Origin: Helicobacter cetorum
GTDB taxonomy: Bacteria; Campylobacterota; Campylobacteria; Campylobacterales; UBA6016
Direction: 5' to 3'
Length of the DNA: 40,376 nt
Assembly (NCBI GenBank): GCA_022729705.1
Contig: DZAX01000019.1
Location: 1-40,376 of the forward strand
Of this stretch, positions 12,944-34,727 are shown in pieces (positions within the stretch are counted from its first letter, which is position 1; the number at the start of each line of letters is the position of its first letter). The notes under the pieces were generated by a model that worked only from the letters and a program-made list of their open reading frames with translations, was not told the DNA's origin and did no database searches. The position numbers and the translations under genes were made by a program.

Positions 12944-13036
12944 ACTCTGCCGCTTTATGCGGCTAGCTTTAGGGGGTGCAGGGACATTTATGTCCTTGCC
13001 GCTAACACGGGCTTTGCCCGTGTTAGCGCATAACAT
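12944..13036 (+). repeat. Three-hairpin dispersed repeat, copy R1
   Basis: Hairpin 1 is gccgc/gcggc (12949-12963). Hairpin 2 is gcagggacat/atgtccttgc (12978-12999). Hairpin 3 is a perfect 13-bp stem cgctaacacgggc/gcccgtgttagcg with TTT loop (13000-13028), followed by the end motif taacat. The end motif abuts the rsmD stop codon (minus strand TAATGTTATGCG). Between the repeat and flgI lies the sigma-54 promoter. There is no T-run after hairpin 3, so it is not a canonical intrinsic terminator. Confidence 0.88.
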
Positions 13037-13614
13037 TAGGTGCTATAGTAGACCACAGAGCTCTTACCAAATTTTTTTGTTTTTTGCTCCACAAAAGAGC
13101 CTATTTTTTTAGGCAACTCATAGCCTGTCATAAACTCTACGGCAACTATATCCATTTGTTTTGGCTCTATGCTATCGATAAGAGATATACACTCTTCATA
13201 TATATTTTCCATGTTTTCACGAATACTAAAAGGCGGATCAAAATAAAATATTCTTTTCTCTTTTTTCCCAAGACTCTTTAAGAGTTCACCAAAATACTCA
13301 AAACTATCAACATTATATACTCTAGCGTTGTCAACATCCAAAGTATCAAGATTTTTTTGGATACACATATATGAGTTTCTATCTTTTTCCAAAAAGTAGA
13401 CAAACTCAGCCCCTCTACTAAGCGCCTCTATACCTATACTTCCGCTTCCGGCGAATACCTCCACAAATATAGAGTCCGCAACTTCGCCCTGAAGAGCGTT
13501 AAATACAGACTCTCTTATAATGTTTTTTGTGCTTCTTGTTACTGCAATATCGGCTAAAGTTATATTTTTGCCTTTAAATTTACCGGCTATAATTTTTGTG
13601 GATAACTGTTTCAT
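13036..13614 (-). CDS. rsmD: 16S rRNA (guanine966-N2)-methyltransferase
   Basis: RsmD methylates G966 of 16S rRNA in the 30S subunit using S-adenosylmethionine. At 192 aa it is typical. The SAM-binding motif is EVFAGSGSIGIEALSRGA (near residues 53-70). The catalytic N6/N2-methylase motif is DPPF (FYFDPPFS, near 122). The start ATG at 13614 overlaps the stop of the upstream small gene (ATGA). Repeat R1 begins right at its stop codon. The association with flgI is conserved in Campylobacter. Confidence 0.92.
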   Translation of the reverse strand: MKQLSTKIIAGKFKGKNITLADIAVTRSTKNIIRESVFNALQGEVADSIFVEVFAGSGSIGIEALSRGAEFVYFLEKDRNSYMCIQKNLDTLDVDNARVYNVDSFEYFGELLKSLGKKEKRIFYFDPPFSIRENMENIYEECISLIDSIEPKQMDIVAVEFMTGYELPKKIGSFVEQKTKKFGKSSVVYYST

Positions 13615-13997
13615 TTATGCTCTTTTATCACCCTAAGCAACTCTCTTACAAACTTTTCCGTAATAATAGAAACTTTTCTCTCCAAGGTAAGTCCTTCTCT
13701 TGAAGCCTGAGGCGCTCTTGGTTTTTCAGACTCATTTGATTTGCCTTGCTCATAGATAGTCTCCTGCTTTGGCTTGTTGCAATAAAGGTCAAGGGCTTTT
13801 AGTAATTTTGACTTTGAAAAAGGTTTTTTGAGATTAGCTCCGTTTTCAGAACCTATTAAAAACATAGGCTTTTCAACATCCAATTTTTTATCGCAGACAA
13901 CAAAATCACAAGCGGGATACGAGCTTAGTCGCTCTTTTAAAAACACCTCTAAGCACTTTTTCAAAAGAGGTGAGTCGCATTTTACATAAATCTTCAA
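13611..13997 (-). CDS. Conserved small protein next to rsmD (Cj1460-like position)
   Basis: This protein is 128 aa from my preferred start, a TTG at 13997 with GGAGG 5 nt upstream, giving MKIYVKCDSPLLKK. An earlier in-frame TTG at 14015 lacks a ribosome site. It has no signal peptide or membrane segment. The N-terminal 80 residues look alpha/beta (DFVVCDK, FLIGSENG). The C-terminal part is a polar linker and a basic helix (KVSIITEKFVRELLRVIKEH). I do not recognise a domain. The same small gene stands before rsmD and flgI in Campylobacter, which suggests a flagellar or ribosome-assembly link. Confidence 0.7.
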   Translation of the reverse strand: MKIYVKCDSPLLKKCLEVFLKERLSSYPACDFVVCDKKLDVEKPMFLIGSENGANLKKPFSKSKLLKALDLYCNKPKQETIYEQGKSNESEKPRAPQASREGLTLERKVSIITEKFVRELLRVIKEHK

Positions 13998-14040
13998 ATC
14001 TGCCTCCAAAGCCAATTTTTGACTCTAATTCTACCTAAAT

Positions 14041-14067
14041 TCAAATTTTACTAGCTTTTGCCGATAT
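14041..14067 (+). promoter_or_regulatory. Sigma-28 (FliA) promoter of flaG-fliD-fliS
   Basis: TCAAATTT (14041-14048), an 11-nt spacer, then GCCGATAT (14060-14067). The -10 matches the FliA consensus GCCGATAA in seven of eight bases, and the spacing is exact. The flaG ATG is 35 nt downstream, preceded by AAAGGGGGGG. Confidence 0.8.
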
Positions 14068-14101
14068 ATTAAGTTGAATAAATAATGGTAAAGGGGGGGT
14101 T

Positions 14102-14500
14102 ATGAATGGATTAGATATTTCATCCAGTATTCATTCGTTGCAAAATGGAATGAGGGTTGCTTTTGGAAGTATGTCAAATGCTGAGTCTGCACAGACACAT
14201 ACAAAAACGGTTGCTTCTTATACAGATGAGTATGTCAATATAGACGGCACAGACAAAAAAGTAACGGACGAAAAACTAAAACAGGAACTCATAAAATTAA
14301 CGGAACGACTAAATGTAGAGATGAATCCGCTAAACTTGCGTGTAAGGTTTGGCTATAACGATAAGATAGGGGAGATGTTTGTATCTGTATTTGAGAAAGA
14401 TTCAAACAGACTCTTGCGGAAGTTTCCAACAGACGAGGCGGTTGATTTAATGGCAAAAATGAGAGAAATCAACGGTATAATATTCGACAACAAAGCTTAA
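14102..14500 (+). CDS. flaG: FlaG family flagellar protein
   Basis: This 132-aa protein has a variable Ser/Thr-rich N-terminus and the FlaG domain at about residues 60-130: LTERLNVEMNPLNLRVRFGY, then ISVF-like MFVSVFEKDSNRLLRKFP and EAVDLMAKM. FlaG influences filament length in Campylobacter, and its gene usually precedes fliD. It begins the flaG-fliD-fliS operon behind a sigma-28 promoter with a strong AAAGGGGG ribosome site. Confidence 0.92.
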   Translation: MNGLDISSSIHSLQNGMRVAFGSMSNAESAQTHTKTVASYTDEYVNIDGTDKKVTDEKLKQELIKLTERLNVEMNPLNLRVRFGYNDKIGEMFVSVFEKDSNRLLRKFPTDEAVDLMAKMREINGIIFDNKA

Positions 14501-14514
14501 ATAAAGGATTTACA

Positions 14515-16494
14515 ATGGCTGCAATAAGCTCACTAGGACTTGGAAGCGGAACTCTTACAAGTGATTTACTAGACAAACTAAAAGCTGGAGAGACAAGCGC
14601 AACGGTCAATCCAATGACAAACTCCATAACAAAAATACAAAAACAAAAAACAGACTTATCGTCACTTATAGTAACAGCTTCATCTGCGAAAACAGCCGCT
14701 ATGGATTTAGGAGATGAGGCGACATACCTCAAAAGGACAGGCACAAGCAATAGTACCGATATAGGCTTAACTGTTGCAAACGGCGTAGCTCCGCAGAGTA
14801 TGACGATGACTGTGCAGCAACTAGCGCAAAACCATGTCATGAAAACAAGCGGGTTTGCAACATCAACCTCTATTGTAACATCCGAAGATAAAACAATGAA
14901 GATTGCGTTAGGCTCCAACACATACAGTATCAGCGTGACAGCCGGCACAACGCTAGAGCAGCTAGCGCAAAAAATAAACGATGCGACAAGCGGAGCCGTC
15001 AGTGCTGGAGTCTTAAACACAGGCACAGGTGCAAACCCATATGTAATGACGCTTAAAACAAAAGATACCGGTTCTGCAAACATTATGAAAATAACAAGTG
15101 AATTTGATCTTGAAATGACTACAAAACAAGGTTTTGAAAATAATGCGAAGACTGGAAGCATATCGCTTGATGCTGGCGATCTTAAAATAAACGGGGTTAG
15201 CATAGCGGCTCTAGACGCTACGGATGTGACTAACACAGATCAAGATAATGCGGAAGCCATAGTTGCCAAGATAAATGAGGCTACTACGACAACTGGAGTT
15301 AATGCATATACAGACGGTGACGGAAAAATATTTTTACAAAGTAAAAGTGGTGGGGCTATCGACGTAGTAACGGACAATGGAGCTGGAGACAAGATAGGAA
15401 CGGGGGCCGATGGAACCCTTAATATAGCGGCTGCCGCTCTTCAACAAGCCAAAGACGCTAAGTTTACCTACAACGGTATCGATATGACCAGGTCTAAAAA
15501 TGAGATTACAGACATTATCACCGGAGCCACTTTTAAGCTAAACAAAGTGACTACATCCAATGTAAACTTATCAGTCACGCAAGACACAACGGATATACCA
15601 AAATTTGCCGATACGTTTGTCAGTGCTTTTAATTCATTAAAATCAAAAATATCTGATTTGACGAAATATGACAGCGCCACAAAAACTTCCGGCTCTTTGC
15701 AGGGTATATCAGATGTTACCTCTATCTATAGTAAACTCTCAGCCCTAATTACAAAACAAAATGACGATAGCAAATCACTTGTGGATTACGGCTTCACGCT
15801 TAATAAAAACGGCACGCTAAATCTTGATAAGACTATTTTAAACGCAAAATTAAGCAGTGACCCTGCGGCTCTTGAAAAGATGTTTAGAGGTACGACAAAT
15901 ATCACAAAAGCGATATATTATGCACCATCAACATCAACGGATGAAGAGACTACGGTAGCCGCAGGCGATATAACAATAAATGGCAGAGCTATCGCCACCG
16001 TAACCACGGCAGATGGAACCGCCGAGTCAAATGCTCAAAAATTCGCTACGGCAATTAACGACATATATGAATCTACAGGCGTAAAAGCGTATACTGACGG
16101 CAGTGGAAAACTGAGATTAGAAAACCCTAGCGGCGGCGCAATAAAACTAAGAACCACAGAGACTGCGGCTACGGCGTCTGGCTTGACATTTGCCGCTCAA
16201 GATACAACAGTAGGCTATGGCTCTAGCACAAAAGTAAAAGGTTCCTTTGCAGAGATGAACTCTGCTCTTGGCTCTCTCATTAGCGGTGATAAGGCGACTT
16301 TAAATCTGCTCGATAAGTCTTTTCAGTCAAAAATTGATAGCCAAACAAAAGAAAAAGAAAAAGCTACAAAACTCATAGACCAAAGATATGAGATTATGGC
16401 AAAACAGTTTGCGCTTTACGATAGCATGATAAGTAAGTTTCAACAAAACTTTCAATCGCTTCAAATGCAGATAAACGCCGCAGCCAATGGCTAA
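14515..16494 (+). CDS. fliD: Flagellar filament cap FliD (HAP2)
   Basis: FliD caps the filament tip and guides flagellin folding. At 659 aa it is long but similar to Campylobacter FliD. The N-terminus (SSLGLGSGTLTSDLLDKLKA) and C-terminal coiled helices (KIDSQTKEKEKATKLIDQRY, then MAKQFALYDSMISKFQQNF) are the terminal domains that interlock in the cap. Two flagellin-IN-type motifs are visible, near residues 221-285 and 483-545. They resemble each other (KINGVSIAAL versus TINGRAIATV, then AYTDGDGKIFL versus AYTDGSGKLRL, each followed by SGGAI), so part of the exposed region arose by duplication. AAAGGA precedes the ATG. Confidence 0.95.
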   Translation: MAAISSLGLGSGTLTSDLLDKLKAGETSATVNPMTNSITKIQKQKTDLSSLIVTASSAKTAAMDLGDEATYLKRTGTSNSTDIGLTVANGVAPQSMTMTVQQLAQNHVMKTSGFATSTSIVTSEDKTMKIALGSNTYSISVTAGTTLEQLAQKINDATSGAVSAGVLNTGTGANPYVMTLKTKDTGSANIMKITSEFDLEMTTKQGFENNAKTGSISLDAGDLKINGVSIAALDATDVTNTDQDNAEAIVAKINEATTTTGVNAYTDGDGKIFLQSKSGGAIDVVTDNGAGDKIGTGADGTLNIAAAALQQAKDAKFTYNGIDMTRSKNEITDIITGATFKLNKVTTSNVNLSVTQDTTDIPKFADTFVSAFNSLKSKISDLTKYDSATKTSGSLQGISDVTSIYSKLSALITKQNDDSKSLVDYGFTLNKNGTLNLDKTILNAKLSSDPAALEKMFRGTTNITKAIYYAPSTSTDEETTVAAGDITINGRAIATVTTADGTAESNAQKFATAINDIYESTGVKAYTDGSGKLRLENPSGGAIKLRTTETAATASGLTFAAQDTTVGYGSSTKVKGSFAEMNSALGSLISGDKATLNLLDKSFQSKIDSQTKEKEKATKLIDQRYEIMAKQFALYDSMISKFQQNFQSLQMQINAAANG

Positions 16495-16528
16495 TTTGGG
16501 TTAACAAAATTTTGGGGGTATAATAAAT

Positions 16529-16900
16529 ATGAGGTCAAATGCGGTCAACGCATACGCGCAAAATGCAACTAGAGTAGAGTCGCCGGAGAAACTTGTACAA
16601 ATGCTTTTTGAGGGAGTGCTAAGATTTACGGCACAAGCAAAAAAAGCGATACAAGACGGCGATATAGATAAAAAAGTATACTGGATTAATAGAACCATAG
16701 ATATTTTTGCAGAACTTATAAACTCTCTAAATTATGAAAAAGGCGGTGATATATCAAACTATCTTAACGGTCTATATAGTCATCAAATATTTTTGCTTAG
16801 CACCGCAAATATTGAGAACACAATAGAACCTTTAGAGACGGTGATTTTGGTCACAAAAGGTCTTATAGACGCTTGGAAAGACGTCACTGGAGTAAAGTAA
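16529..16900 (+). CDS. fliS: Flagellin export chaperone FliS
   Basis: This 123-aa helical protein binds the flagellin C-terminus in the cytoplasm and prevents early polymerisation. Family landmarks are NAYAQNATRVESPEKLVQML near the start, the FTAQAKKAIQDGD and INRTIDIFAELINSLN helices, and LYSHQIFLLSTAN. It lies 34 nt after fliD, and its TAA shares a base with the ATG of the next gene (TAATG). Confidence 0.94.
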   Translation: MRSNAVNAYAQNATRVESPEKLVQMLFEGVLRFTAQAKKAIQDGDIDKKVYWINRTIDIFAELINSLNYEKGGDISNYLNGLYSHQIFLLSTANIENTIEPLETVILVTKGLIDAWKDVTGVK

Positions 16901-17130
16901 TGGAGTATTTAAACGAGTTAAAAGTCGCCGTAATAAACAGCGACTTTGCAAAAATGGATGAGCTTTCAGGCATAATGTTTACAAGCTCCGACAAAGTCGA
17001 GCTTGAAGAAGCGGCGGCTCTTATCAAAGAGGCGATGCGACTTTTGGACGAAGAGAGAGCAAAAACATTGGAAGAGATGCGAAATATCCAAAAAATTAGA
17101 AAATACGCCGAGGGTGATGCTAACTATTAG
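16900..17130 (+). CDS. Small helical protein after fliS, FliT-like
   Basis: I start it at ATG 16900 (76 aa), which overlaps the fliS stop as TAATG; the upstream in-frame TTG at 16873 would lie deep in fliS. It is helical, acidic and Leu/Glu-rich with no motif I can name. Size and position match FliT-type chaperones, which bind FliD. In Campylobacter an unnamed small gene also follows fliS. Repeat R2 begins at the base after its TAG stop. Confidence 0.65.
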   Translation: MEYLNELKVAVINSDFAKMDELSGIMFTSSDKVELEEAAALIKEAMRLLDEERAKTLEEMRNIQKIRKYAEGDANY

Positions 17131-17214
17131 ATGTTATACGCCAACACGGGCAAAGCCCGCATTGGCGGCAAGGACATAAATGTCCATTGATGCCCGCATA
17201 TAATGCGGGAGAGT
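17131..17214 (-). repeat. Three-hairpin dispersed repeat, copy R2
   Basis: This is a reverse-orientation copy. The end motif ATGTTATACG starts at the base after the stop codon of the upstream gene. Hairpin 3 (17139-17167) pairs fully, using two G.T wobbles when read in element orientation. Hairpin 2 is aaggacat/atgtcc with its 5' flank lost. Hairpin 1 is cccgca/tgcggg. The purine-rich spacer (agggggtgc in other copies) is deleted here. It lies between convergent genes. Confidence 0.85.
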
Positions 17215-17240
17215 GGAGGTTTTTACACCCATAAAGCACG

Positions 17241-18074
17241 TTAAGCTCTATATGATGTGAGTTTTATCTTTTTGACTTGCTCAAATGCATTTTGGACTCT
17301 TCTAAATTTAATCGTATATCGCTTTACGGTTTCTTCGTCTTTTCCATAGACTCTATCTGGATGATATATCTTGATGAGTTCCAAATATTTCTGCCTTATC
17401 GACTCCATACTATCTGTTTTTTTGGAATTTAGCTCTCCAAAGTACGCCTCTTTGAGCCTTTCGGAAGAGTCGGTAAAAAAACTATTTTTTGAATATTTGG
17501 AAAATGAATTTAGTTGTATTAGCTCTTCTTCGTTATATGTAAACTTAACTTGTAAAAAGTCGCTGAACTTGATATTTTTTTCAAGCAACTTTCTTAGCGC
17601 TATATACCCCTCTTTACTAGAAACTTTTACTTTGGCTATATTTTGATGGTAATCTACATCTACTTTTGCGCCAAAAAAACTTTTTTTTAGGAGCTCTACA
17701 ATACGTTTTGTCTCATCTGAAAATCTAAAAAAAACGCTGTCATTTCGGCAATTTACCACTATTTTACCGGCATTAAAACCTTCTTTTGATTGTGCAAACT
17801 CCACAAAAAAGGGTACATTTGGATTAAATTCAAAAAAAACTTTTTCGCTTCTTGTTTTGTTAAAGTTATCAAGAAGGCAACTGGCAAAAAACTGCCGCTT
17901 TTTTCTATCTTCATTTTTTGGAAAAATCAAAATTGATTCTTTTAGATGAATAAAAAATTTAAAATTTTTCTGTATATAGTGTCTTATATATTCGGAATAT
18001 GCCTCATCAGTCGCATCCACGCGAGCCAGTATCATATTTTCCGTGTGAGTAATAGCAAAAACTTGACTATTCAT
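17241..18074 (-). CDS. J-domain protein with C-terminal J domain
   Basis: This protein is 277 aa from ATG 18074 (an in-frame TTG at 18089 also has a possible ribosome site). The J domain is at the very C-terminus (residues about 215-277): YLELIKIYHPDRVYG contains the HPD motif (H238-D240) needed to stimulate DnaK ATPase. The N-terminal 200 residues have no zinc finger or G/F region and match no domain I know. So this is a DnaK co-chaperone of type III with its own targeting region, common in Campylobacterota. It lies between repeats R2 and R3. Confidence 0.83.
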   Translation of the reverse strand: MNSQVFAITHTENMILARVDATDEAYSEYIRHYIQKNFKFFIHLKESILIFPKNEDRKKRQFFASCLLDNFNKTRSEKVFFEFNPNVPFFVEFAQSKEGFNAGKIVVNCRNDSVFFRFSDETKRIVELLKKSFFGAKVDVDYHQNIAKVKVSSKEGYIALRKLLEKNIKFSDFLQVKFTYNEEELIQLNSFSKYSKNSFFTDSSERLKEAYFGELNSKKTDSMESIRQKYLELIKIYHPDRVYGKDEETVKRYTIKFRRVQNAFEQVKKIKLTSYRA

Positions 18075-18126
18075 CACCCAGCTCTCCAATTATTTTTAAA
18101 TGGAACCAGCAAAAGCCGTTCCGTTT

Positions 18127-18222
18127 GATGCTATACGCCAACACGAGCGAAGCCCGTGTTAGCGGCAAGGACATAAATGTCCCTGCACCCCCTGAGGCTA
18201 CCCGCCGTAGGCGGGAGAGTGC
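18127..18222 (-). repeat. Three-hairpin dispersed repeat, copy R3
   Basis: This is a full reverse-orientation copy between the rny stop (10 nt away) and the J-domain gene start. In element orientation: hairpin 1 cccgcc/ggcggg, hairpin 2 gcagggacat/atgtccttgc, and hairpin 3 (18136-18164) with 13 pairs of which two are G.T wobbles, loop TTC. The end motif is tatagcatc. The copy can be read through as a short peptide beginning MLYANTSEARVSG, which I reject as a gene. Confidence 0.88.
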
Positions 18223-18232
18223 AATACAGGGA

Positions 18233-19801
18233 CTACCTAGCAAACTCAGTCGCCCTTGTTTCTCTAATAACGCTAACTTTTATTTCACCGGGATACTGAA
18301 CGCCTTTTTCTATTTCAGCCGCTATCTCTCTTGCTATAAGAGCTGATTCGTCGTCGTTTACTAAAGAGGCGTTTACTATTACTCTTATCTCTTTACCGGC
18401 GGCTATCGCATACGCATTTTTGACGCCTTTGTGCGAGAGGGCGATTTTTTCCAACTCTTCCACTCTTTTCAAAAAGCTCTCAAGCACCTCTCTCCTAGCC
18501 CCCGGTCTAGCCGCCGATAGAGCGTCCGCCGTACAAACCGCCGCACACTCGATGGAACGAGCCTCTTCCAGCCCGTGATGTGCGTAGATGGCGTTTATTA
18601 CAACGCAGTGCTCTTTATATCTTTTGCAAACATCGGCGCCAAGGTCAACATGACTTCCTGAGTAGTCGTGAGTCAACGCCTTACCAATATCATGAAGCAA
18701 AGCGGCTCTTTTTGCCAGCGTCTCATCGCCGCCAAGCTCTGCGGCTATAATACCCGCCAAATGCACAACTTCCAAAGAGTGAGCCAAAGCGTTTTGACCG
18801 TAACTCGCTCTATATTTTAGTCGCCCTATCAGCTTAATAAGCTCTGGATTTACATGCCCGACTCCAAGGTCGATTACTATATTTTCACCCTCTTCATACA
18901 TTTTTTCATCAAATTCTAGTTTGACTTTTTCATATATCTCTTCTATTTTTGCTGGCTGTATTCTACCATCTTCTATGAGAAGCTCGATTGTTTTTGTAGC
19001 AATAGAACGTCTAAGAAGGTTAAAGCTGCTCACAATAATAGCGTTTGGCGTATCGTCCACGATAACGTCTACGCCAAGGAGCATCTCAAGAACTTTTATA
19101 TTTCGCCCCTCTTTACCGATAATACGCCCTTTTATCTCTTCGCTATGAATATGTACAACATTTATCAATCTCTCAGCCGCAAACTCTCCGGCATATCTAG
19201 TGGTGGCTTGAGCGATAATATAGTTTGCTTTTTTTCTGGCCTCCGCTTTCGCTTCCGCCTCATAACGTCTGACAATATGCGCTATCTCTTCTCTGCAATT
19301 CTCTTCTGTTTTTTTAAGCGCTATCTCTTTTGCCTCGCGCCTTGTAAGCCCAGCACCGGACTCTACTATTTTTAAAGCCTCTTCCGCTTTTAGCGCATAT
19401 TCGTCTTTAATTCGTTCGAGCTCTTTTTTGTTCAAAAGTATCTCTTCTTTTAAAGAAGCAGTCTCTCTCTTTTGCGACTCCAAAGCTCTTAATTCGCTTT
19501 TTGTTTTCTCAGAGAGACTCTCCTCTTTTTTTGAAAGAAGCTCTTGTTTTATGTCGTAATCACGTTTTAATCGCACAAGCTCAAGCTCAACTTTTTTTCT
19601 AGCGTCAAGCTCTAGGTTTATCTCCTTTGCTTTTATGCTCTCAAGTTTTAGCTCAGCCTCATGCTCTATCGCTCTAGCTTTTGATTTTGACTGCTCAATA
19701 TAGATTTGATACTTTGCGGAATCCAATTTTTTTGCTACGAAAAATCCTATTAGCCCTGACGACGCAGCGGCTGCCGTAGCCGTTAATACTGTTGTAAGCA
19801 T
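18233..19801 (-). CDS. rny: Ribonuclease Y
   Basis: RNase Y is a membrane-anchored endoribonuclease that starts mRNA decay. At 522 aa it has full family architecture: one N-terminal membrane helix (residues 5-23), a long charged coiled coil to about 200, a KH domain with GRIIGKEGRNIKVLE, and an HD domain with H370/D371 in LLHDIGKALTHDYSGSH. The ATG at 19801 lies inside the end of the cyclo-ligase gene, a 107-nt overlap, so the two are translated from one message. Repeat R3 follows its stop closely. Confidence 0.95.
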   Translation of the reverse strand: MLTTVLTATAAAASSGLIGFFVAKKLDSAKYQIYIEQSKSKARAIEHEAELKLESIKAKEINLELDARKKVELELVRLKRDYDIKQELLSKKEESLSEKTKSELRALESQKRETASLKEEILLNKKELERIKDEYALKAEEALKIVESGAGLTRREAKEIALKKTEENCREEIAHIVRRYEAEAKAEARKKANYIIAQATTRYAGEFAAERLINVVHIHSEEIKGRIIGKEGRNIKVLEMLLGVDVIVDDTPNAIIVSSFNLLRRSIATKTIELLIEDGRIQPAKIEEIYEKVKLEFDEKMYEEGENIVIDLGVGHVNPELIKLIGRLKYRASYGQNALAHSLEVVHLAGIIAAELGGDETLAKRAALLHDIGKALTHDYSGSHVDLGADVCKRYKEHCVVINAIYAHHGLEEARSIECAAVCTADALSAARPGARREVLESFLKRVEELEKIALSHKGVKNAYAIAAGKEIRVIVNASLVNDDESALIAREIAAEIEKGVQYPGEIKVSVIRETRATEFAR

Positions 19802-20363: not shown

Positions 20364-20403
20364 AAACCATCTCCAAAGCTTTTTTGGTTAAGCGCATAGA
20401 GTT

Positions 20404-20409
20404 TATAAT
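20404..20409 (+). promoter_or_regulatory. Candidate -10 box for the tlpA-ftsY-radA operon
   Basis: TATAAT lies 30 nt before the lipoprotein ATG, within a 75-bp divergent intergenic region. No good -35 is visible, which is normal for promoters of this phylum. AAGGA at 20429-20433 is the ribosome site. Confidence 0.45.
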
Positions 20410-20438
20410 CTTTTTACTGATATTACAAGGAAAAAAAT

Positions 20439-20984: not shown

Positions 20985-20987
20985 AAG

Positions 20988-21866: not shown

Positions 21867-21870
21867 TCTC

Positions 21871-23214: not shown

Positions 23215-23217
23215 AAA

Positions 23218-24828
23218 ATGCATGACGAACACTTATTAACCGTATCTTTTATAATTTTTATTGCGATTATTCTAAGTCTACTTTTAAAGAGAATAGGTAT
23301 TAGTGCCATTATCGGATATATCCTAACCGGAGTAGTCGCAAAAGCTATTTTTGGGCTTACAGGAAGCGATGAACTTACCGCTATTGCAGAGTTTGGAGTC
23401 GTCTTTTTGATGTTTATGTTGGGATTGGAGTTTTCCCTTGAAAAACTAAACTCAATGAGAAAAGAGGTGCTCGGGCTTGGCGGACTACAAGTACTTATCT
23501 CTGGTCTACTGTTTTCAAGCGTACTTCATCATCTATTGGAGTTTGATATAAAAATAGCGATAGCGATAGGTTTTACGCTCTCGCTCTCATCAACAACTAT
23601 CATCCTAAAAATCCTACACGAAACCGGCAAAATTGGACGAAATCACGGTAGAAACTCGATAGGCATTCTGCTTATGCAAGACATCGCCGTTGTTCCAATA
23701 CTTATTTTGGTGAGTATTCTAGCCGATTCGTCAAAAAACCTTAATGAACTACTCTTGCAAACCGGATTCAATTCGGCGGGTGGAATTGTCGTTATCTACT
23801 TTTTTGGAAAATACGGTGTTTCATATTTTCTAAAACATGTAAGCGGCGCAAAATCAAACGAACTGTTTATGATGTCGGTACTACTTATAGTGCTTACCTC
23901 CGCTTCAATTGCCCACTTTTTTGATGTGCCATACTCGCTTGGAGCGTTTATCGCCGGCATTATCATCTCAGAATCGGCGTTTAAACATCAGATAGAAGCC
24001 GACCTTATACCTTTTCGTGATCTGCTTTTGGGTGTTTTTTTCGTTTCCATCGGTATTCTTATCGATATAAACTACTTTTTTAATAATATCTTGACAATAC
24101 TTCTTTTCACGATAGCTATTATGAGCTCAAAAACGCTTATAATTTTCTATCTTTCAAAGGCTTTTAAATACTCTTCAAGAACGGCGATAAAGACGGCGAT
24201 ACTACTCTCTCAAGTTGGAGAGTTTTCGTTTGTAATATTTGCGCACGCTAAGACGATACATCTTATTTCAGAAGAGATTGCGCAGACTTTTATAGCGGTG
24301 GCGGCTCTGTCTATGATAATAACGCCGTTTTTGGCAAAATATCTAGCTGAAATCTCTTATAGGTTTACCAAAAATGTCGATAGCGAACTAATTGAAAAAT
24401 CATCGGGATATAAAAACCATGTAGTCGTAATAGGCTTTGGCAACACCGGAAAGGCCGTAATAAGAGGTCTAACCAACAGCGGCGTCAAATACATATCGGT
24501 AGAGAGACAAAGAGATCTCGTATACGACGCACAGGCTAGGGGATACAACGTAATATTTGGAAGCGCCATGCAAAAAAATATACTTGAAACCCTAAAACTC
24601 AAAGATGCGTCCGCCGTTATCGTAACAATAGACAGAGAAGAGGAGCTTTTGACTATTTGCGAAATTATTAGATTTAACTATCCAAAAGTCAATCTTGTCG
24701 CAAGAACAAAAAACAATAGAGAGTACAAACTAATAAGAGCCGCCGGAGTTTACTCACTTGTGGATGAGAGCGAAGAAGTCGGCAAAAAGCTTGTAGAGAT
24801 GGCGTTGACTTGCAAGATTGGCTCCTAG
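23218..24828 (+). CDS. kefB: CPA2-type cation/proton antiporter, KefB family
   Basis: This 536-aa inner-membrane protein has about 12-13 helices over residues 1-385, including LMFMLGLEFSLEKL and LSLSSTTIILKIL typical of the Na+/H+ exchanger fold. A cytoplasmic RCK/TrkA-N domain starts at H401: HVVVIGFGNTGKA is the nucleotide-binding glycine motif. KefB-like proteins move K+ against H+ and respond to NAD(H) or thiol adducts; I see no sign of a KefF-type accessory gene. It lies 3 nt after radA, probably read through from the same operon. Confidence 0.9.
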   Translation: MHDEHLLTVSFIIFIAIILSLLLKRIGISAIIGYILTGVVAKAIFGLTGSDELTAIAEFGVVFLMFMLGLEFSLEKLNSMRKEVLGLGGLQVLISGLLFSSVLHHLLEFDIKIAIAIGFTLSLSSTTIILKILHETGKIGRNHGRNSIGILLMQDIAVVPILILVSILADSSKNLNELLLQTGFNSAGGIVVIYFFGKYGVSYFLKHVSGAKSNELFMMSVLLIVLTSASIAHFFDVPYSLGAFIAGIIISESAFKHQIEADLIPFRDLLLGVFFVSIGILIDINYFFNNILTILLFTIAIMSSKTLIIFYLSKAFKYSSRTAIKTAILLSQVGEFSFVIFAHAKTIHLISEEIAQTFIAVAALSMIITPFLAKYLAEISYRFTKNVDSELIEKSSGYKNHVVVIGFGNTGKAVIRGLTNSGVKYISVERQRDLVYDAQARGYNVIFGSAMQKNILETLKLKDASAVIVTIDREEELLTICEIIRFNYPKVNLVARTKNNREYKLIRAAGVYSLVDESEEVGKKLVEMALTCKIGS

Positions 24829-24911
24829 GCGGCTTCAGCTGTAGCGTAAATTGTTGTAATGGTTTGGTGATAATAATACGCCAAAATACTTATAAAATTT
24901 ACAACCCAAAA

Positions 24912-25006
24912 ACTCTCCCGCATTTATGAGGGTAGTTTTAGGGGGTACAGGGACATTCATGTCCTTGCCGCTAAGACGGGCTTTGCTCGTGTTAGCGTAT
25001 AGCATC
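24912..25006 (+). repeat. Three-hairpin dispersed repeat, copy R4
   Basis: This forward copy lies between kefB and the glycosyltransferase gene. Hairpin 1 is imperfect (ctcccgc/gagggtag). Hairpin 2 is cagggacat/atgtccttg. Hairpin 3 (24969-24997) has 12 of 13 pairs with one G.G mismatch and one G.T wobble. It ends tatagcatc, 31 nt before the next start codon, so it is carried forward in the leader or intercistronic RNA of the glycosyltransferase. The preceding 83 bases (24829-24911) are AT-rich with a short inverted GTAAATT/AATTTAC pair and no gene. Confidence 0.85.
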
Positions 25007-25037
25007 AGGCGTGTAATATTATGCAAGAGTTGGAAGC

Positions 25038-26153: not shown

Positions 26154-26205
26154 CATAATCTTACCTAACAAATACGCTGTAAGGTTAAATTATGTTTATA
26201 AAACT

Positions 26206-26211
26206 TATAAT
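26206..26211 (+). promoter_or_regulatory. Candidate -10 box before the small exported protein and porin
   Basis: TATAAT lies 36 nt before the ATG at 26248, with a weak GGTTAA 17 nt upstream. AAAGAGG serves as ribosome site. The 94-bp gap holds no gene; an imperfect TTACCT/AGGTTAA inverted pair before the box may help end the glycosyltransferase transcript. Confidence 0.45.
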
Positions 26212-26247
26212 GACGGTTATATAAATATTGACAAAGAGGTTCACAAA

Positions 26248-26514: not shown

Positions 26515-26545
26515 CAAAAATAACGCAAAAATGAAAGGAAAACAA

Positions 26546-28021: not shown

Positions 28022-28029
28022 AAAAAAAT

Positions 28030-28052
28030 CGCCCTTCTCGCAAGGAGGGGCG
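28030..28052 (+). promoter_or_regulatory. Hairpin covering the ribosome site of the chemoreceptor gene
   Basis: CGCCCTTC (28030-28037) pairs with GAGGGGCG (28045-28052) around a 7-nt loop, eight pairs with one G.T. The perfect ribosome site AAGGAGG (28042-28048) is half in the loop and half in the stem, 5 nt before the ATG. A run of nine A precedes it. Read on the minus strand, it would be a stem followed by T9, the form of an intrinsic terminator. Confidence 0.6.
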
Positions 28053-28053
28053 T

Positions 28054-29685
28054 ATGATGGAGAAAACAACAATGCTTTCAAAATTAAGCATCAAAATAAA
28101 ACTTCTACTTATGGCGATTATTTCACTTGGCGGTATGTTATCTCTTGGCATACTAGGTCTTTACTCTATCCACTCATCGCAAAAAGCGTTTGAGACATTC
28201 AAGACAAATGAACTAGCGCTTATGTCGGAGTCAAAAAATATTAAAGACGAGTTGTCTTCACTCATGACAAAAGCGATGTCGGCTTCTATGGAGGGCATCA
28301 AACTAGAGTCCACTATACAGTCTCAAGAAAAACTTGAAGAGTCAATAATAAAGTTAGGCGTCATCGGCGTTGCAATGAACTCGCAAGAGATTGCCGGACT
28401 GGCTCAAAATATCAGCATTAGAAGCTCCTCTCTTTTCCAAAATGCCGCTTCTCTTAGCGAAGCGTACCGCTCAAACAATAAAGACGATGCGCTAGATGCG
28501 TTGGACGGATTTAGTGCGATAGCCAAAAAGACTAATGAAGAGCTTGAAAAACTAGAGAGCGTCGCAAAAAAATCACTAGACAACAACCTTGCAAGCCTAA
28601 ATAGAAGCTATACCGCCTTTACTGTTTTGATTGCGATTGCGCTAATATTTTTTCTATTGTCAGTATTTATTATTGGCTATTTAATGGCGGCTAGCATCTC
28701 AACGAGGGTCTCCAATCTTGGAAAAGACATGAATTTGGTTGTGGAAAAAAGAGATCTTACTATTGTTTGCGATACAAACTCAAAAGACGAAATAAGCTCT
28801 ATAGCCTCAAATATCAACCACATACTCTTGCAACTGCGAACGCTACTATATAACGCAAAAGTTGGCTCAAACCAAAATAAAAAAGTCGCCTCCGAGCTAA
28901 TACCAATTTTTGCAACAATGACCGACAGTGCGATAGAACAAGCTAGAATGCTTCGCGACAGTAGCCAAGATGCGGCAGACGCGGCAAAAGAGTTGGAAAT
29001 CTCCGCCACAAAAGCAAGACGCGTGCAAGAGGACATCAAAAACTCCGCTTTGTCGCTTTCATCTTCAAGCACAAAACTAAGAACAGCTCTTTCTATGATG
29101 GAAGAGAGCGTTCAGGTAGAGGCTGAGTTTGCCAAAAAAATGAGTAGGCTCTCAAATGAAGCGGCTGAGGTAAAGAGCGTCCTACTTGTTATCTCCGAGA
29201 TAGCAGATCAAACAAACCTACTAGCTCTAAACGCCGCTATAGAAGCCGCTAGAGCAGGAGAACACGGTAGAGGCTTTGCCGTTGTGGCAGACGAGGTACG
29301 AAAGCTAGCAGAGAGGACACAAGACAGCTTATCTCAAACAGACACAACCATAAACACAATAGTAAAATCCATCAATGAAGCCTCAGAGGAGATGCTAAGA
29401 AACGCTAAAAATATAGAGACGCTAAGTAAAAACTCAATGGAGGTTGAAGTCTCCATAAGCTTGAGTGAACAAGCAATGAATGGAACATTACAAGATATGG
29501 AGAGTCTCGTAGAAGAGATAATTAAAAACTCAAACGCCATATCAAGTGTAGCAAGGGATGTACAAAACATAAACAGCATATCATCTTCAAACGCCGATAA
29601 AGTCGCAACCATGAGGGAAGCTGTAAAAAATCTGGAGCACGCTTCACACGAATTGGATAAAGAGCTTTGCTTATATATCACTTAA
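28054..29685 (+). CDS. Methyl-accepting chemotaxis protein
   Basis: This 543-aa transmembrane chemoreceptor has TM1 at about residues 17-38, a small helical periplasmic sensor (about 40-188) rich in Ser/Lys/Glu, TM2 at about 190-215, then a HAMP-like linker and the cytoplasmic signalling coiled coil. The kinase-binding tip is fully conserved: [19 protein letters not shown], then [20 protein letters not shown]. There is no CheR-tethering pentapeptide at the C-terminus. The ligand is unknown. An ideal AAGGAGG precedes it but sits in a hairpin. An IS481 remnant starts within 15 nt of its stop. Confidence 0.93.
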
Positions 29686-29696
29686 TCTTAATCCAA

Positions 29697-30028
29697 AAAC
29701 GGTTCATAGATGGAAAAAGGACACGAGTACGGAAGATAAAAAGAGTGGCGCAAAAAAGATTAAATCATCCCTTTATCGTGGCTTACAACGCAATGGTTTA
29801 TCGGTATTACTAAAGAGTGAAGATGAGCCGAGAGAGAAGAAAAAGTTTAAAGAATATGAAATAGGCTTTGTGTATGTTGACATCACTTAAGCAATCATTA
29901 AGAAATTGAAAGCTTTGACGTTTAAAAGTCCATACGATACGCTACTTGAAAAGTTCGACTCAAATCCTGAGCTTTTTAAAGATAAACCTTGCCGGAAGTT
30001 GAGGGGATTAAACAGGATTAAAAAATAA
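29697..30028 (+). pseudogene. IS481-type transposase remnant, internally deleted
   Basis: Translation from 29702 gives VHRWKKDTSTEDKKSGAKKI, the helix-turn-helix end and linker of IS481-family transposases. FKEYEIGFVYVDIT, the first strand of the DDE domain, then meets a stop (TAA) near 29888. The downstream part IKKLKALTFKSPYDTLLEKF and DSNPELFKDK is the family's C-terminus. The centre of the DDE domain and the N-terminus are missing. It ends with TAA at 30026-30028, directly before the mnmH start. It shares sequence with the remnant at 38.4 kb. Confidence 0.8.
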
Positions 30029-31048
30029 TTGATTACTGATATTACAATACAAGCATTTATCGAAAATATAGAAAACTACGACTTAATAATAGACGCCAGA
30101 AGCCCTGCAGAATATAAGTGTTCTCGTATCCAAAACGCTGTTAACTACTACGCTTTAGACGATAAAGAGCATCAAGAGATAGGAACTGTGCATAAACAAA
30201 TCTCGCCTTTTGAGGCAAGAGTCAAGGGTGCGGCGTATGTGTGTAAAAATGCGGTGGAGCATATACAGACGCTCTACAAATCTTTTACCCCAAGCGCAAA
30301 AATCGCTATTTATTGCGCTAGAGGCGGTATGCGTTCATCTTCGCTTGCGACTATTTTTTCTAGTATCGGGTATCGTATTGATAGGGTAGAGGGCGGGTAT
30401 AAAGCGTACAGGGCGTTTATGTTGCCCTATCTTGAAAACTTCGACGCTTACCGTTTTATTACCCTAACAGGTCTTACCGGATGTGGCAAAAGCGAACTAC
30501 TTGAAAGCTTAGACAATGTCATAGACTTAGAAAAAATGGCAAATCACTACGGCTCTGTGTTTGGAGAAGCTAGAGGAGAACAGCCGACACAAAAAGAGTT
30601 TCAAAACCGCACCGCCCACAACATACTAAGACTAAACCCGCAAATTCCCGTCTTTATCGAGGCGGAGAGTAAAAAAATAGGTCATATTATTATGCCCTCA
30701 AACCTACACAAAAGTATGTCGGCGGGGCTAAGGGTAGAGATTACAGCGCCATTGAAAAGTCGCATAGATCGTATTGTAAAGATGTATTCGCATATCAACT
30801 CAGAGTTTTTTTTGCAATGTATAGAAAAGATAACACCATATATCAAACATAGTGACAAACTAGATATAATCGCTGAATATAAAAAAGGTGAACTATCAGG
30901 AGTTGCCGAAATTCTACTTACACAATACTATGACAAGGTCTACAAAAAGACGCTTCCGCCGGATATGATAATTAATAATGACAACTTATCAAAAACGCTA
31001 GCGACATTGCGTGAATTACAACAAGAAATGAGTGAAAAAAGTCAATAA
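30029..31048 (+). CDS. mnmH: tRNA 2-selenouridine synthase
   Basis: MnmH (SelU, YbbB) replaces sulfur by selenium in 2-thiouridine at the wobble position of some tRNAs, through a geranylated intermediate, using selenophosphate from SelD. At 339 aa it has an N-terminal rhodanese domain with catalytic C96 in IYCARGGMRSS and a P-loop domain with GLTGCGKS at 148-155. SPFEARVKGAAYV and NRTAHNILRLNP are further family landmarks. The start is TTG at 30029; no close ATG exists and the ribosome site is poor (AGGA 11 nt upstream). The IS481 remnant supplies its upstream region. The gene implies a selenium pathway elsewhere in the genome. Confidence 0.93.
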   Translation: MITDITIQAFIENIENYDLIIDARSPAEYKCSRIQNAVNYYALDDKEHQEIGTVHKQISPFEARVKGAAYVCKNAVEHIQTLYKSFTPSAKIAIYCARGGMRSSSLATIFSSIGYRIDRVEGGYKAYRAFMLPYLENFDAYRFITLTGLTGCGKSELLESLDNVIDLEKMANHYGSVFGEARGEQPTQKEFQNRTAHNILRLNPQIPVFIEAESKKIGHIIMPSNLHKSMSAGLRVEITAPLKSRIDRIVKMYSHINSEFFLQCIEKITPYIKHSDKLDIIAEYKKGELSGVAEILLTQYYDKVYKKTLPPDMIINNDNLSKTLATLRELQQEMSEKSQ

Positions 31049-31050
31049 AG

Positions 31051-31056
31051 TATAAT
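31051..31056 (+). promoter_or_regulatory. Possible -10 box for the HD-GYP/GGDEF operon
   Basis: TATAAT begins 3 nt after the mnmH stop; no clear -35 is seen. If used, the message would have a leader of about 190 nt containing all of repeat R5 in forward orientation. Confidence 0.35.
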
Positions 31057-31147
31057 TTGATATATAAATAACCAAAAAAAATTACTTTGCTTTTCTTTAT
31101 CTTAGGCTAAAATAAACATAGCAAAAAGCGCTGCCACATAAAAGACC

Positions 31148-31240
31148 ACTCTCTCGCATAGCGGGTAGCTTTAGGGGGTGCAGGGACATTTTATGTCCTT
31201 GCCGCCAATACGGGCTTTGCTCGTATTGGTGTGTAACATC
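31148..31240 (+). repeat. Three-hairpin dispersed repeat, copy R5
   Basis: This forward copy ends 14 nt before the HD-GYP gene. Hairpin 1 is short (ctcgc/gcggg). Hairpin 2 is gcagggacat/atgtccttgc with an extra T pair in the loop. Hairpin 3 (31203-31231) pairs over all 13 positions with compensatory changes against R1 (C-G for T-A at position 4, T-A for C-G at position 7) and two G.T wobbles. The flanking 31049-31147 holds only AT-rich sequence. Confidence 0.88.
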
Positions 31241-31254
31241 AAAAAGGAAGCAAG

Positions 31255-33423
31255 TTGATTTTGTCAAACAAAATACTAATTGTAGAAGATTCTAAAACTA
31301 TAAATAACTTTTTAAAAAAGAGTTTTGAAGGCTTTGGGTATAGTTGCTATCAAGCTTTTACGCTCAAAGAGGCTCTAAGCCTAGTCTCAGACATTGAATT
31401 TGATTTTATTACTCTTGATTTACACTTGCCAGACGGCGAGGGAGATGAACTGCTAGAGAGCCTAAGTAAAAAAACCTCGACAAAAATTATAGTCCTAACC
31501 GTAATAACAGACAAAGACCGTAGAGATCTACTTTTTAGAAATGGAGTATTTGATTATTTTGACAAAGATTCGCTAAGCAAAAAAACCATACTGGATATTA
31601 TATTTCTCATAAAGCGAGCCAATGATAATACGGATACTTCGATACTGGTAATAGACGATTCCGTGGTTATAACAAAATGCATCAGGAGACTACTAGAAAT
31701 CAGGGGTTATCGCGTATTTTGCGCCGGAAATGGAAAAGACGGGCTTGAGACTCTTAATGCAAATAAGATAGATTTGGTGATTATTGACATTGAACTTCCA
31801 GATATTCGAGGAACAAAACTCTTAGAGATAATAAAAAATAATCCAAAGTTTGAAATGCTACCCACGCTTATGCTTTCATCCACAACAGACGCCACCATAA
31901 TAGGCGACACTCTAAAAAATGGAGCGGCGGATTTTTTGCGAAAACCATATATCGCAGAAGAGTTGATAAGAAAAATTGATTTCTGGATTGACTATAGAAG
32001 AAAAAGCGACAAAATCACGCACGCTGATAAAATATTAAGCGAATATAAAAAAGCCGTCGACAATAGCACGATTGTTTCAAAGACAGATAAAAACGGGCTT
32101 ATAACCTTCGTTAACGACAAGTTTTGTGAAATATCCGGTTATACCCCGGAAGAACTTATCGGAAAGCCGCATAGCATTCTTAGGCATCAGGATATGTCAG
32201 AAAAAGTATTTGAAGAGTTATGGAATACAATAAAGTCAAAAAAAATATGGCACGGGGTTGTAAAAAACAAAAGAAAAGATAAAACAGCATATATCGCCCA
32301 ATCAACAATAACGCCGATTCTTGATGAAAACGGCGAAATAGTCGAGTTTATAAGCGTTAGACACGATATTACGCAACTTGAAGAGCTAAGAGACGAACTT
32401 CAAAACAAACTAGGCGGCGCAGAGAGAAGTCTAAACGAAACCCTTGAGATAACCGCTCAATATGAGATAGCGCTTGATGAGGCAAATATGATTGTAAAAA
32501 CAGACCCCAACGGGATTATTATGTTTGCCAATGATAAATTTTGCGATATATCCGGCTATCAAATATCGGAACTTATAGGCAATACGCACGCCATAGTGCA
32601 ACATCAAGACACCAAAAAAGAGGCTATAAGAAAGATATGGGGAGCAATAAAACAAGGCGAAATATATAAAGGCGTAATTAAAAATAGAAGAAAAAACGGC
32701 TTTCCTTTTTGGGTTGAGACTATTATAAAGCCAATTACAATGGACGGTGAAATAATAGAGTATCTCCAAATAAGCAACGACGTAACAGAGGCGATATCTT
32801 TATATGAAGAACTCGAAGATACACAGCGTGAACTAATCTATAGATTTGGAGAGATAGGAGCGGCTAGAAATAAAGAAACAGGACAGCACGTCAAAAGAGT
32901 AGCCGAGTACTCAAGACTGCTTGCGCAAAAATATGGGCTATCAGATGAAGATAGCCAGCTCGTATTTGTAGCTTCGCCAATGCACGACATCGGCAAAGTC
33001 AGCATTCCCGATAGCGTACTTCTAAAACCTGGCAAGCTAGACAAGGAAGAGTTTGAGATAATGAAAACACACGCCGAAATAGGCGCAAAAGTGCTATCGG
33101 GCTCTAAGAGAAAGATTATAGAAGCGTCCTCCATAATAGCGTTTCAGCATCATGAAAAATATAACGGCAAAGGCTATCCAAGAGGCTTAAAAGGCGACCA
33201 AATACACATCTTTGGACGAATTGTCGCAATAGCCGATGTATTTGACGCTCTTGGCTCCGATAGACCATACAAAAAAGCTTGGGAGCTTGAAAAAATATTG
33301 GAGCTTTTTCACAAAGAGAGAGGCGAGCACTTTGATCCGTTGCTTACGGACATTTTTCTAAATAACTTTGCTGATTTTCTGGATATTAGAGATCAGTATA
33401 GCGACGAGATAGAGGAAATATAA
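31255..33423 (+). CDS. REC-REC-PAS-PAS-HD-GYP protein, probable c-di-GMP phosphodiesterase
   Basis: This 722-aa soluble protein has two receiver domains with phospho-acceptors D55 (TLDLHLPD) and D178 (IIDIELPD), two related PAS domains (about 260-380 and 392-510, both with GLITFVNDKFCEISG-like cores), and a C-terminal HD-GYP domain. HD-GYP enzymes hydrolyse c-di-GMP; the metal site MHDIGKVSIPD (H577, D578) and HHEKYNGKGYPRGL (GYP at 640-642) look intact. TTG start at 31255 has AAAGGA upstream. The next gene follows after 3 nt. The two receivers mean more than one kinase may feed in. Confidence 0.92.
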   Translation: MILSNKILIVEDSKTINNFLKKSFEGFGYSCYQAFTLKEALSLVSDIEFDFITLDLHLPDGEGDELLESLSKKTSTKIIVLTVITDKDRRDLLFRNGVFDYFDKDSLSKKTILDIIFLIKRANDNTDTSILVIDDSVVITKCIRRLLEIRGYRVFCAGNGKDGLETLNANKIDLVIIDIELPDIRGTKLLEIIKNNPKFEMLPTLMLSSTTDATIIGDTLKNGAADFLRKPYIAEELIRKIDFWIDYRRKSDKITHADKILSEYKKAVDNSTIVSKTDKNGLITFVNDKFCEISGYTPEELIGKPHSILRHQDMSEKVFEELWNTIKSKKIWHGVVKNKRKDKTAYIAQSTITPILDENGEIVEFISVRHDITQLEELRDELQNKLGGAERSLNETLEITAQYEIALDEANMIVKTDPNGIIMFANDKFCDISGYQISELIGNTHAIVQHQDTKKEAIRKIWGAIKQGEIYKGVIKNRRKNGFPFWVETIIKPITMDGEIIEYLQISNDVTEAISLYEELEDTQRELIYRFGEIGAARNKETGQHVKRVAEYSRLLAQKYGLSDEDSQLVFVASPMHDIGKVSIPDSVLLKPGKLDKEEFEIMKTHAEIGAKVLSGSKRKIIEASSIIAFQHHEKYNGKGYPRGLKGDQIHIFGRIVAIADVFDALGSDRPYKKAWELEKILELFHKERGEHFDPLLTDIFLNNFADFLDIRDQYSDEIEEI

Positions 33424-33426
33424 AAT

Positions 33427-34662
33427 ATGGAAAAGATACTAATAGTCGAGGACAATAAGGCGCTAGCAAAAGCGTTATCGGCGCACATTTCAAAAATATC
33501 CAAATACGTCGTAGTTATTGCGCACTCAATGGAAGAAGCAAAAAAAGCGACCGAAAACGAAAGTTTTCTCGCAGCTCTTCTTGACTTAAATCTTCCAGAC
33601 GCACCAAATGGAGAAGTGGTTGATTATATCTTAGCTCTCAATATACCCTCCATTATTCTAACGGCAAACTTTGACGAAGCTACAAAAAAAGTTGTTCTTC
33701 AAAAACCGATTATAGATTATGTCTATAAAGACAAACTAAAAGATGTGGATTATATCATCACAAAAGTAGAGAGATTAGAGAAAAACAGAACCCAAAAGGT
33801 TTTGGTAGTGGACGATTCTAGGGTAATTAGAGCTGAGATTAAAAACTACCTATCCAGAGAGCTTTATCAAGTATTAACGGCGGCTAACGGCGAAGAGGCA
33901 CTCTGGCTTTACAATAACGACCCCGATATTTCGCTTGTAGTTACAGACTACAATATGCCAATTATGAACGGGCTTGAGCTAGTAGAGAAGCTAAGAGAAA
34001 TAACCACAAAAAACACGCTCTCAATTGTTGGTATCTCTTCAAACGATGAGACGGCGGCAAATTTTTTAAAGTTTGGAGCAAATGATTTTATAAAAAAGCC
34101 GTTTACCAAAGACGAGTTTGTGTGTCGTGTCAATAACGCCGTAGAAGCCCTTGAAAACATAAAACAAATAAGGCAAATATCTATAACTGATTTTTTAACG
34201 GGCATCTACAACAGACGTCATTTTTTTGAAAAATTTGCAGACTACTACAATAAGGCGGTTGAGGTTGGCGAGCCTTTTGCGTTGGCGACATTCGATATAG
34301 ATAATTTCAAATCCATTAATGACGCTTATGGGCACCCAGTAGGAGATGAGGTGATTAAAATAACGGCAAATGCGTTACGAAACTATGCAAAAGGAACTGA
34401 CGTTGTAGCCAGAATAGGCGGGAAAGAGTTTTGCGTGCTACTAAAATCAATAAATGCGGGCAACGCCATCGCCCTCATCGACTCCATTAGACGGGCTATT
34501 TCATTGACCGCCTTACAGCTAAAAAACGGCGAAACATTGCGTTTTACGGTATCGGCAGGACTCTCCACAAATGCGCTAAGCTCAATGGAAGATATGATTG
34601 ATCATAGCGATGCGCTACTTTATAGAGCTAAAACAAGCGGTAAAAATTGTGTAATGTATTAG
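33427..34662 (+). CDS. REC-REC-GGDEF protein with variant GGKEF site
   Basis: This 411-aa protein has receivers with D53 (ALLDLNLPD) and D174 (VVTDYNMP), then a GGDEF domain (about 245-411) with ATFDIDNFKSINDAYGHPVG and VARIGGKEF. The signature residue that binds metal, D or E, is K333 here. The inhibitory RxxD site is KGTD, so its arginine is lost too. The architecture is that of Campylobacter CbrR. It may be a non-catalytic GGDEF acting as regulator or scaffold beside the HD-GYP enzyme; that is inference. Repeat R6 begins at the base after its stop. Confidence 0.92.
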   Translation: MEKILIVEDNKALAKALSAHISKISKYVVVIAHSMEEAKKATENESFLAALLDLNLPDAPNGEVVDYILALNIPSIILTANFDEATKKVVLQKPIIDYVYKDKLKDVDYIITKVERLEKNRTQKVLVVDDSRVIRAEIKNYLSRELYQVLTAANGEEALWLYNNDPDISLVVTDYNMPIMNGLELVEKLREITTKNTLSIVGISSNDETAANFLKFGANDFIKKPFTKDEFVCRVNNAVEALENIKQIRQISITDFLTGIYNRRHFFEKFADYYNKAVEVGEPFALATFDIDNFKSINDAYGHPVGDEVIKITANALRNYAKGTDVVARIGGKEFCVLLKSINAGNAIALIDSIRRAISLTALQLKNGETLRFTVSAGLSTNALSSMEDMIDHSDALLYRAKTSGKNCVMY

Positions 34663-34708
34663 ATGTTATACGCTAACACGGGCAAAGCCCGCATAAATGT
34701 GGGAGAGG
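34663..34708 (-). repeat. Truncated three-hairpin repeat, copy R6
   Basis: The end motif ATGTTATACG starts at the base after the TAG stop of the GGDEF gene. cgctaacacgggcaaagccc follows as in other copies. The sequence then jumps to gcataaatgtgggagagg, which is hairpin 1. Hairpin 2 and half of hairpin 3 are missing; the join lies in the GCGGG shared by hairpins 1 and 3. It sits between convergent genes. Confidence 0.8.
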
Positions 34709-34727
34709 TTGTGCTGCAAGGGCTTGA

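Follow-up and report, generated by a model that had tools for sequence, protein, structure and literature searches.

A candidate MITE of Helicobacter cetorum whose terminal repeat appears to provide the stop codon of native-length genes

We consider it probable (about 0.68) that the short repeats found at gene ends in Helicobacter cetorum are a MITE with a built-in stop codon, which is tolerated mainly where this stop falls in register with the adjoining gene; the excess of in-register copies is not fully explained in this way. Comparison of sequences indicates that the elements lie at native gene ends, yet that the stop codon is brought by the element.

The window, i.e. the complete stretch of 40,376 nucleotides that was analysed, is one contig (C51) of a 2.19 Mb genome in 75 contigs, here called G000; G001 and G002 are genomes of the same genus. 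The window contains seven copies of the repeat (R1 to R7), listed here with the genes that they meet (CM, covariance model).

12944..13040, minus strand: R1, CM 110.8 bits; left end supplies the TAA of rsmD
13036..13614, minus strand: rsmD, 16S rRNA (guanine966-N2)-methyltransferase (TIGR00095, 130.9 bits, cut-off 117.5); terminated by R1
16873..17130, plus strand: ORF downstream of fliS (coding score and orthologs in G001 and G002); ended by the R2 stop
17127..17214, plus strand: R2, CM 74.6 bits; left end supplies the TAG (17128-17130) of ORF 16873-17130
18124..18220, plus strand: R3, CM 111.6 bits; right end faces the end of the RNase Y gene, 12 nt away
18233..19801, minus strand: RNase Y gene, whose end is faced by R3
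24912..25009, minus strand: R4, CM 105.4 bits; right end faces the end of 23218-24828, 83 nt away
31146..31243, minus strand: R5, CM 107 bits; right end faces the end of 30029-31048, 97 nt away
33427..34662, plus strand: response regulator/GGDEF gene, CbrR-like (NF050064 and TIGR00254 matches); ended by the R6 stop
34659..34712, plus strand: R6, located from the sequence; left end supplies the TAG (34660-34662) of gene 33427-34662
40233..40333, minus strand: R7, with a divergent left end, CM 82.4 bits; right end faces the end of 38677-40122, 110 nt away

The consensus of the seven copies is YTGATGTTAYRCGC-CAATACGRGCAAAGCCCGTATTG-GCGGCARGGACATAAATGTCCCTGCACCCCCTRAAGCTA-CCCGC...GCGGG-AGAG. It comprises three hairpins (SL1, SL2 and SL3) with a core of ~95 nt and a complete length of up to ~125 bp. 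Hardly any variation is seen in the SL1 apex (GRGCAAAGCYC), in SL2 or in the CCCCCTRAAGC linker, and the SL1 stem shows compensatory changes, with double changes in 5 of 18 pairs. Rfam gave no match to the repeat, neither in the window nor on the element copies. The frame following an ATG in the element is open, but an element-encoded peptide was dropped because SL2 variants shift the frame and the variable codons are non-synonymous.

An earlier note on this DNA had placed R1, R2 and R6 exactly at stop codons, and these positions are borne out. The rsmD TAA (13038-13036, minus strand) continues into ATGTTATGCG, and the TAG codons of the plus-strand genes 16873-17130 and 33427-34662 directly precede ATGTTATACG at 17131 and 34663. 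R3, R4, R5 and R7 turn the opposite end toward the upstream gene at distances of 12-110 nt, as the note had also described. The right arm of R2 extends to about 17245 (GCACGTTAAGCTC), and gene 17241-18089, which converges on it, has its TAA inside that arm. In the derivative R6 an internal deletion joins the 5′ part of SL1 to the 3′ part of SL3. The family match of the gene ended by R6 runs to the end of the gene (409/411), ORF 16873-17130 gave no family match, and the element-free rsmD orthologs of G001 and G002 stop at the same residue.

A genome-wide covariance-model search in which the best 150 candidates were scored found at least 130 good copies. The positional analysis used a sample of 104 stretches around copies (394 kb in total, with 133 copies inside). 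Copies were placed by the covariance model, independently of genes, and ORFs were scored with a dicodon model trained on the long ORFs of the same stretches. The excess of copies at 0-1 nt from stops, which the earlier note had proposed to look for, is strongly positive genome-wide. At the left end, 30 of the 67 coding ORFs that read in stop exactly at the junction, at offset -5 (TGA-TG or TAA-TG, overlapping) or offset -4 (TAG/ATG or TAA/ATG, abutting; slashes here and below mark boundaries), and every other offset holds at most two genes. Without the three copies of the earlier note, 27 of 54 are still at the junction (P ~1e-31 versus a flat spread over -40 to +60). These counts make R1, R2 and R6 typical copies. 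At the right end, where 74 genes read in, no offset holds more than two genes; it was measured from SL3, and the variable right arm blurs exactness. Forty coding frames are open at the junction: the TGA/TAA position of the terminal inverted repeat (TIR) is in frame in 29 of them (one third expected, P ~5e-7), in four more the stop comes one base sooner, and in no case is the element read through. Among the 20 copies with at least 95 bits that lie within 60 nt, offset -5 holds 15 and offset -4 one. Junction copies are, if anything, nearer to the consensus than the others (median 99 versus 82 bits), which leaves the idea of survivorship with age unsupported.

Comparison with element-free orthologs in G001 and G002, a check likewise proposed earlier, was carried out and placed the end of the protein at the same position. 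Between the closest pairs the C-terminal end mostly differs by 0 residues and in the rest by one; examples with the same last residue are ArgB (...GIGTEISL), PurU (...KTVIF) and a glycosyltransferase on contig C42 (...GAY). Therefore nearly all copies are at native gene ends, and the equal lengths reject, for G000, the alternative that genes are cut at a random point and merely receive a stop from the element. The stop itself differs. In G000, TGA is used at 20 of 30 junctions versus 50 of 221 other genes, whereas the G001 and G002 orthologs of junction genes end in TAA or TAG and rarely in TGA. It follows that the stop belongs to the repeat; the same stop usage rejects native TGA stops as the target. 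A reciprocal case is found in G001, where ...LKKGPPF[TGA]TTTAAAAC with the element corresponds to ...LKKGPPF[TAA] without it in the G000 ortholog.

The original stop or gene end can still be seen on the right flank at PurU, C64:16429, C15:15939 and C61:18940. G000 and one G002 contig (L266: ...GTTATATTC[TAA]TGGTATACG) share the site of the purU insertion. There are two purU contigs in G002: L266 (G002:C16:20516-20614) has the element at the stop and G002:C83:109-390 lacks it, which points to a presence/absence pair or to a mixture of strains in the assembly. Both tips serve at C42:30770. There the left gene keeps its native last residue, and the gene converging on it ends at the TGA of the right tip and, from a reading of the two sequences, would be about three residues shorter than its G001 counterpart. 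At two loci the last codons also come from the element: C15:15939 (L027) ends in ...TI-IR versus ...TI-FR in G002, at equal length, and C19:41886 (L030) ends in AKL-TFDVAR versus AKLQK.

In G000 most copies no longer have a right TIR or a clear target duplication, and a search for them gave counts barely above shuffles, so relatives were used to define the complete element. The repeat is patchily distributed, being present in 13 of 60 relatives, with 49 matches in G005, 33 in G040 and 25 in G029; several congeners among the 60 gave no match. In these three genomes the complete element is bounded at both ends by 13-bp inverted repeats, CTGAYSTTACGCA. Across the three, the TIR pattern gave 31+27, 33+27 and 48+49 matches, with 0 for the reversed control. 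Both TIRs together with a 7-bp target duplication (at most one mismatch) are found in 31 copies in relatives, with the consensus TT[AT]NNAA. The target rule of the complete element is a 7-bp duplication TTNNNAA, the length having been settled with sister families. Complete copies measure 110-125 bp and have no coding capacity. The few complete copies in G000 include C6:43917 ([TTATACA]CTGATG...GGTCAG[TTATACA]) and C41:33627, and clear duplications occur there only in single copies, e.g. purU and C6:43917. The left arms of the decayed G000 copies may share the target rule of the relatives, to which the 7-mers before the junction copies lend weak support.

The TIRs and duplications delimit an element that starts with C-TGA-TG, the TGA being bases 2-4, and a stop codon is thus present at each tip in one frame. 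The earlier note had let the repeat begin after the stop. Its junction position stands, while its start has to be moved: the inverted repeat begins one base before the TGA (TTNNNAA/C-TGA-TG), which places the stop inside the element. The note's proposal of insertion with a target preference at gene ends divides in the same way. Gene ends are supported by the shared ortholog residue and by duplications one base before the stop in G005 and G040. As to the preference, the stop comes with the element and is no untouched stop of the host, and at sites with intact duplications the target is TTNNNAA instead of a stop codon.

How the stop comes into register can be read from empty sites that were reconstructed in G005 by joining the flanks. 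At L244 (...TTT CAT AAA TAA to ...TTT CAT AAC TGA TG) and L246 (...ATA ACG AAA TAA to ...ATA ACG AAC TGA) the insertion lies one base before the native stop. Altogether, 4 of the 42 duplication-verified sites in G005 and G040 are exactly one base before a stop, these two included; in 3 of 42 the native stop is formed by the last three bases of the duplication (TTNNTAA/CTGATG). Most of the 42 lie further downstream and a few are inside a gene (-4, -12 and -28 codons, or a tail replacement of equal length).

We propose the following course of events. The repeat would be a non-autonomous, TIR-bounded mobile element (MITE) with three hairpins, whose transposase duplicates 7 bp (TTNNNAA). Each tip carries TGA (or a mutated TAA or TAG), which lies 2-4 nt from the end and acts as a stop in a single frame. 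On insertion one base before the native stop (…AA^ATAA to …AAC TGA TG), the last two bases of the host and the first base of the element form the last codon, and the TGA of the element replaces the native stop at the same codon position. The native stop and the ribosome-binding site and start of the next gene would remain intact behind the element. In a packed seam, the following gene would be cut off from its ribosome-binding site by insertion further downstream, and the first gene truncated by insertion further upstream, while insertion one base before the stop, with the TIR supplying TGA, would harm neither neighbour. A DDE-type transposase presumably moves the element. No TIR pair enclosing a recognised transposase was found in G005, G029 or G040, and a distant pair in G040, 3.8 kb apart, was rejected as an autonomous element because only host genes lie inside; the autonomous partner may be lost, diverged or in other genomes. 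The same TIR and TTNNNAA duplication occur in sister MITE families with lengths of 165, 269 and 435 bp (L270-L277 and L283 in G005/G040; L278 and L280-L282 in G040; L269), of which the 269-bp one varies very little and seems to be recent.

The genome is indeed packed, with a median distance of 7 nt between a stop and the coding feature that follows, and this register would be among the few harmless sites, so that such copies survive. Orthologs of junction genes have a gap of at most 25 nt in 12 of 16 cases, and in some of them stop and start overlap or the ribosome-binding site lies over the stop. However, junction genes are only slightly tighter packed than the background (75% versus 62%), and packing alone is therefore insufficient for the excess: 26 of 39 gene-facing G000 copies are in register versus ~6% expected from target preference and neutrality, roughly tenfold, where the expectation is a rough one, built on the target preference of relatives, an element-centred sample and our own gene calls. 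Given this excess and the similar background packing, some preference at insertion may be left over, or hairpins right behind the stop may be of benefit. The poor TTNNNAA match before junction copies, the decay of right TIRs and duplications in most G000 copies and the failure to find an autonomous element in G005, G029 or G040 also speak against the model.

In the model which we prefer, tolerance under selection and not stop-directed targeting would make most of the excess. If instead the machinery of this lineage preferred the boundary of last codon and stop, the excess would be made at insertion. The tenfold figure, the concentration of strong copies at offset -5 and the orthologs that differ by at most one residue in length would all suit such a process. 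The same holds for junction targets that are poor TTNNNAA matches: the 7-mers before junction copies match weakly, at a mean of -2.8 bits versus -4.4 for random nearby 7-mers. Yet a reading frame is not legible to a DNA-binding protein, and no trinucleotide resembling a stop is seen at that position in the intergenic targets verified by duplications. In G005 and G040, with duplications intact, the in-register share is 4 of 33, which fits the chance expectation (P = 0.12), and some copies there truncate genes by 4, 12 or 28 codons. We regard stop-directed insertion as rather unlikely. A version in which insertion is steered to the exact boundary by translation-termination coupling or another frame-aware cue, with a tip evolved to rebuild the stop, appears similarly unlikely.

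Selection could also act on the RNA, as the earlier note had considered: hairpins ~8 nt after the stop might regulate translation or protect the message, and the spacing would keep the in-element stops. The compensatory changes in the SL1 stem agree with this, but they may serve transposition instead. E. coli REPs up to 15 nt from the stop stall ribosomes, according to earlier work reported in PMC12306157, and the purU copy shared by G000 and a G002 contig is on that account old and retained. Against a selected function, copies stand behind unrelated housekeeping genes, many face no gene at all, and same-genus orthologs manage without the element. Such a 3′-end function is improbable as the cause of the pattern and is not needed to explain where the copies lie.

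The class of the element was considered against other hairpin-rich repeats. Integron attC sites, whose outer boxes are RYYYAAC...GTTRRRY, were rejected since the ends CTGATGTTACG...CGTAACATCAG have the opposite polarity. TTTGATG resembles IS200/IS605-type target motifs and thereby gave a lead to a REP element moved by a Y1 (RAYT/IS200-like) transposase beside TTGA-type sites, with the stop codons lying within the target. The hairpin-rich intergenic character of the repeat and three PF01797 genes in G000 would accord with it. However, the loci examined around the Y1 genes hold no copy of the repeat, G001 and G002 carry copies yet no PF01797 match, and target-gene orthologs rarely end in TGA. 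With no Y1 transposase flanked by the repeats, and with TIRs and 7-bp target duplications present, the REP/RAYT class was rejected, and we judge this origin very improbable. The features of a MITE are found instead: TIRs, target duplication, shortness, absence of coding and many copies, the TIRs and the duplication mainly in relatives, most G000 right ends being decayed. The element works like a MITE and passes the structural tests for one, with its partner transposase missing.

Further repeats were observed alongside. Two RAYT-like Y1 genes, L032 (C17:7143, 247 aa) and L033 (C72:14442, 240 aa), are each surrounded by their own short repeats, GGGTGTCAGGCACTCTTTTATG and GGAAGTGGGACTTTAGTCCCGC, which suggests that two or more other REP families exist in G000. 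Another intergenic repeat (GCGACTAGTCGCGAGAGC...GCTGAAGACCTCATTTTGGGCTTTGCCCAAAATGTGAGAATTAATCA) is often found adjoining or behind the right end of the element (C64:16429, C54:753, C58:21433, C49:64034, C22:29108 and C33:40014). Tandem arrays in which copies lose SL3, with joins ...GAAGCTCA/TTTGATG or ...GTTCCCGCTTACCAT/TCGATGG, occur at L007/L008 (C41:7029, 7191), L011 (C49:15900, 15982) and L024 (C16:15878-16148). In the window, 29697-30014 (plus strand) and 38271-38601 (minus strand) are related degraded sequences in opposite orientation which look like insertion-sequence remains.

Should the model hold, it describes how a transposable element can live in a packed bacterial genome: with a stop at each tip, insertion at gene seams spares both neighbours, and host genes come to depend on a transposon for their stop codon. 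The copies and their paired element-free alleles are natural replicates for testing the effect of hairpins behind a stop on translation. They also advise caution, since a repeat that starts at a stop codon can reveal a property of the repeat and not of the gene.

A search of the openly licensed literature found neither a description of this repeat family in Campylobacterota nor a family whose terminal repeat recurrently forms the in-register stop of native-length genes. REP/BIME sequences with RAYT transposases are likewise palindromic extragenic repeats behind genes, and in E. coli many of them are found 1-20 nt behind a stop (PMC12306157). REPs, however, follow the host stop at a variable distance and have no target duplication, whereas the present repeat contains the stop and has no associated Y1 gene. 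IS1272 (IS1182 family, inverted-repeat-replacing insertion) shares an unusual preference for a structural target feature (PMC5678879), but it replaces hairpins, while the empty sites here are plain TTNNNAA from which nothing is removed. A close likeness is to bacterial MITEs (ERIC/RU-1, RU-2, Correia-type, QMITE and MITEAba12), which are also short, non-coding, intergenic and present in many copies, with TIRs, target duplication and stable hairpins. Contacts with the 3′ ends of genes are known for ERIC/RU-1 and QMITE2; in one QMITE2 copy an indel placed a stop directly before the element (PMC2759123, PMC5896051). The duplication of the present element is the 7-bp TTNNNAA and not TA. Moreover, the MITEs in these papers usually extend or fuse with an ORF, whereas here the TIR contains the stop in register and dozens of genes keep their protein length.
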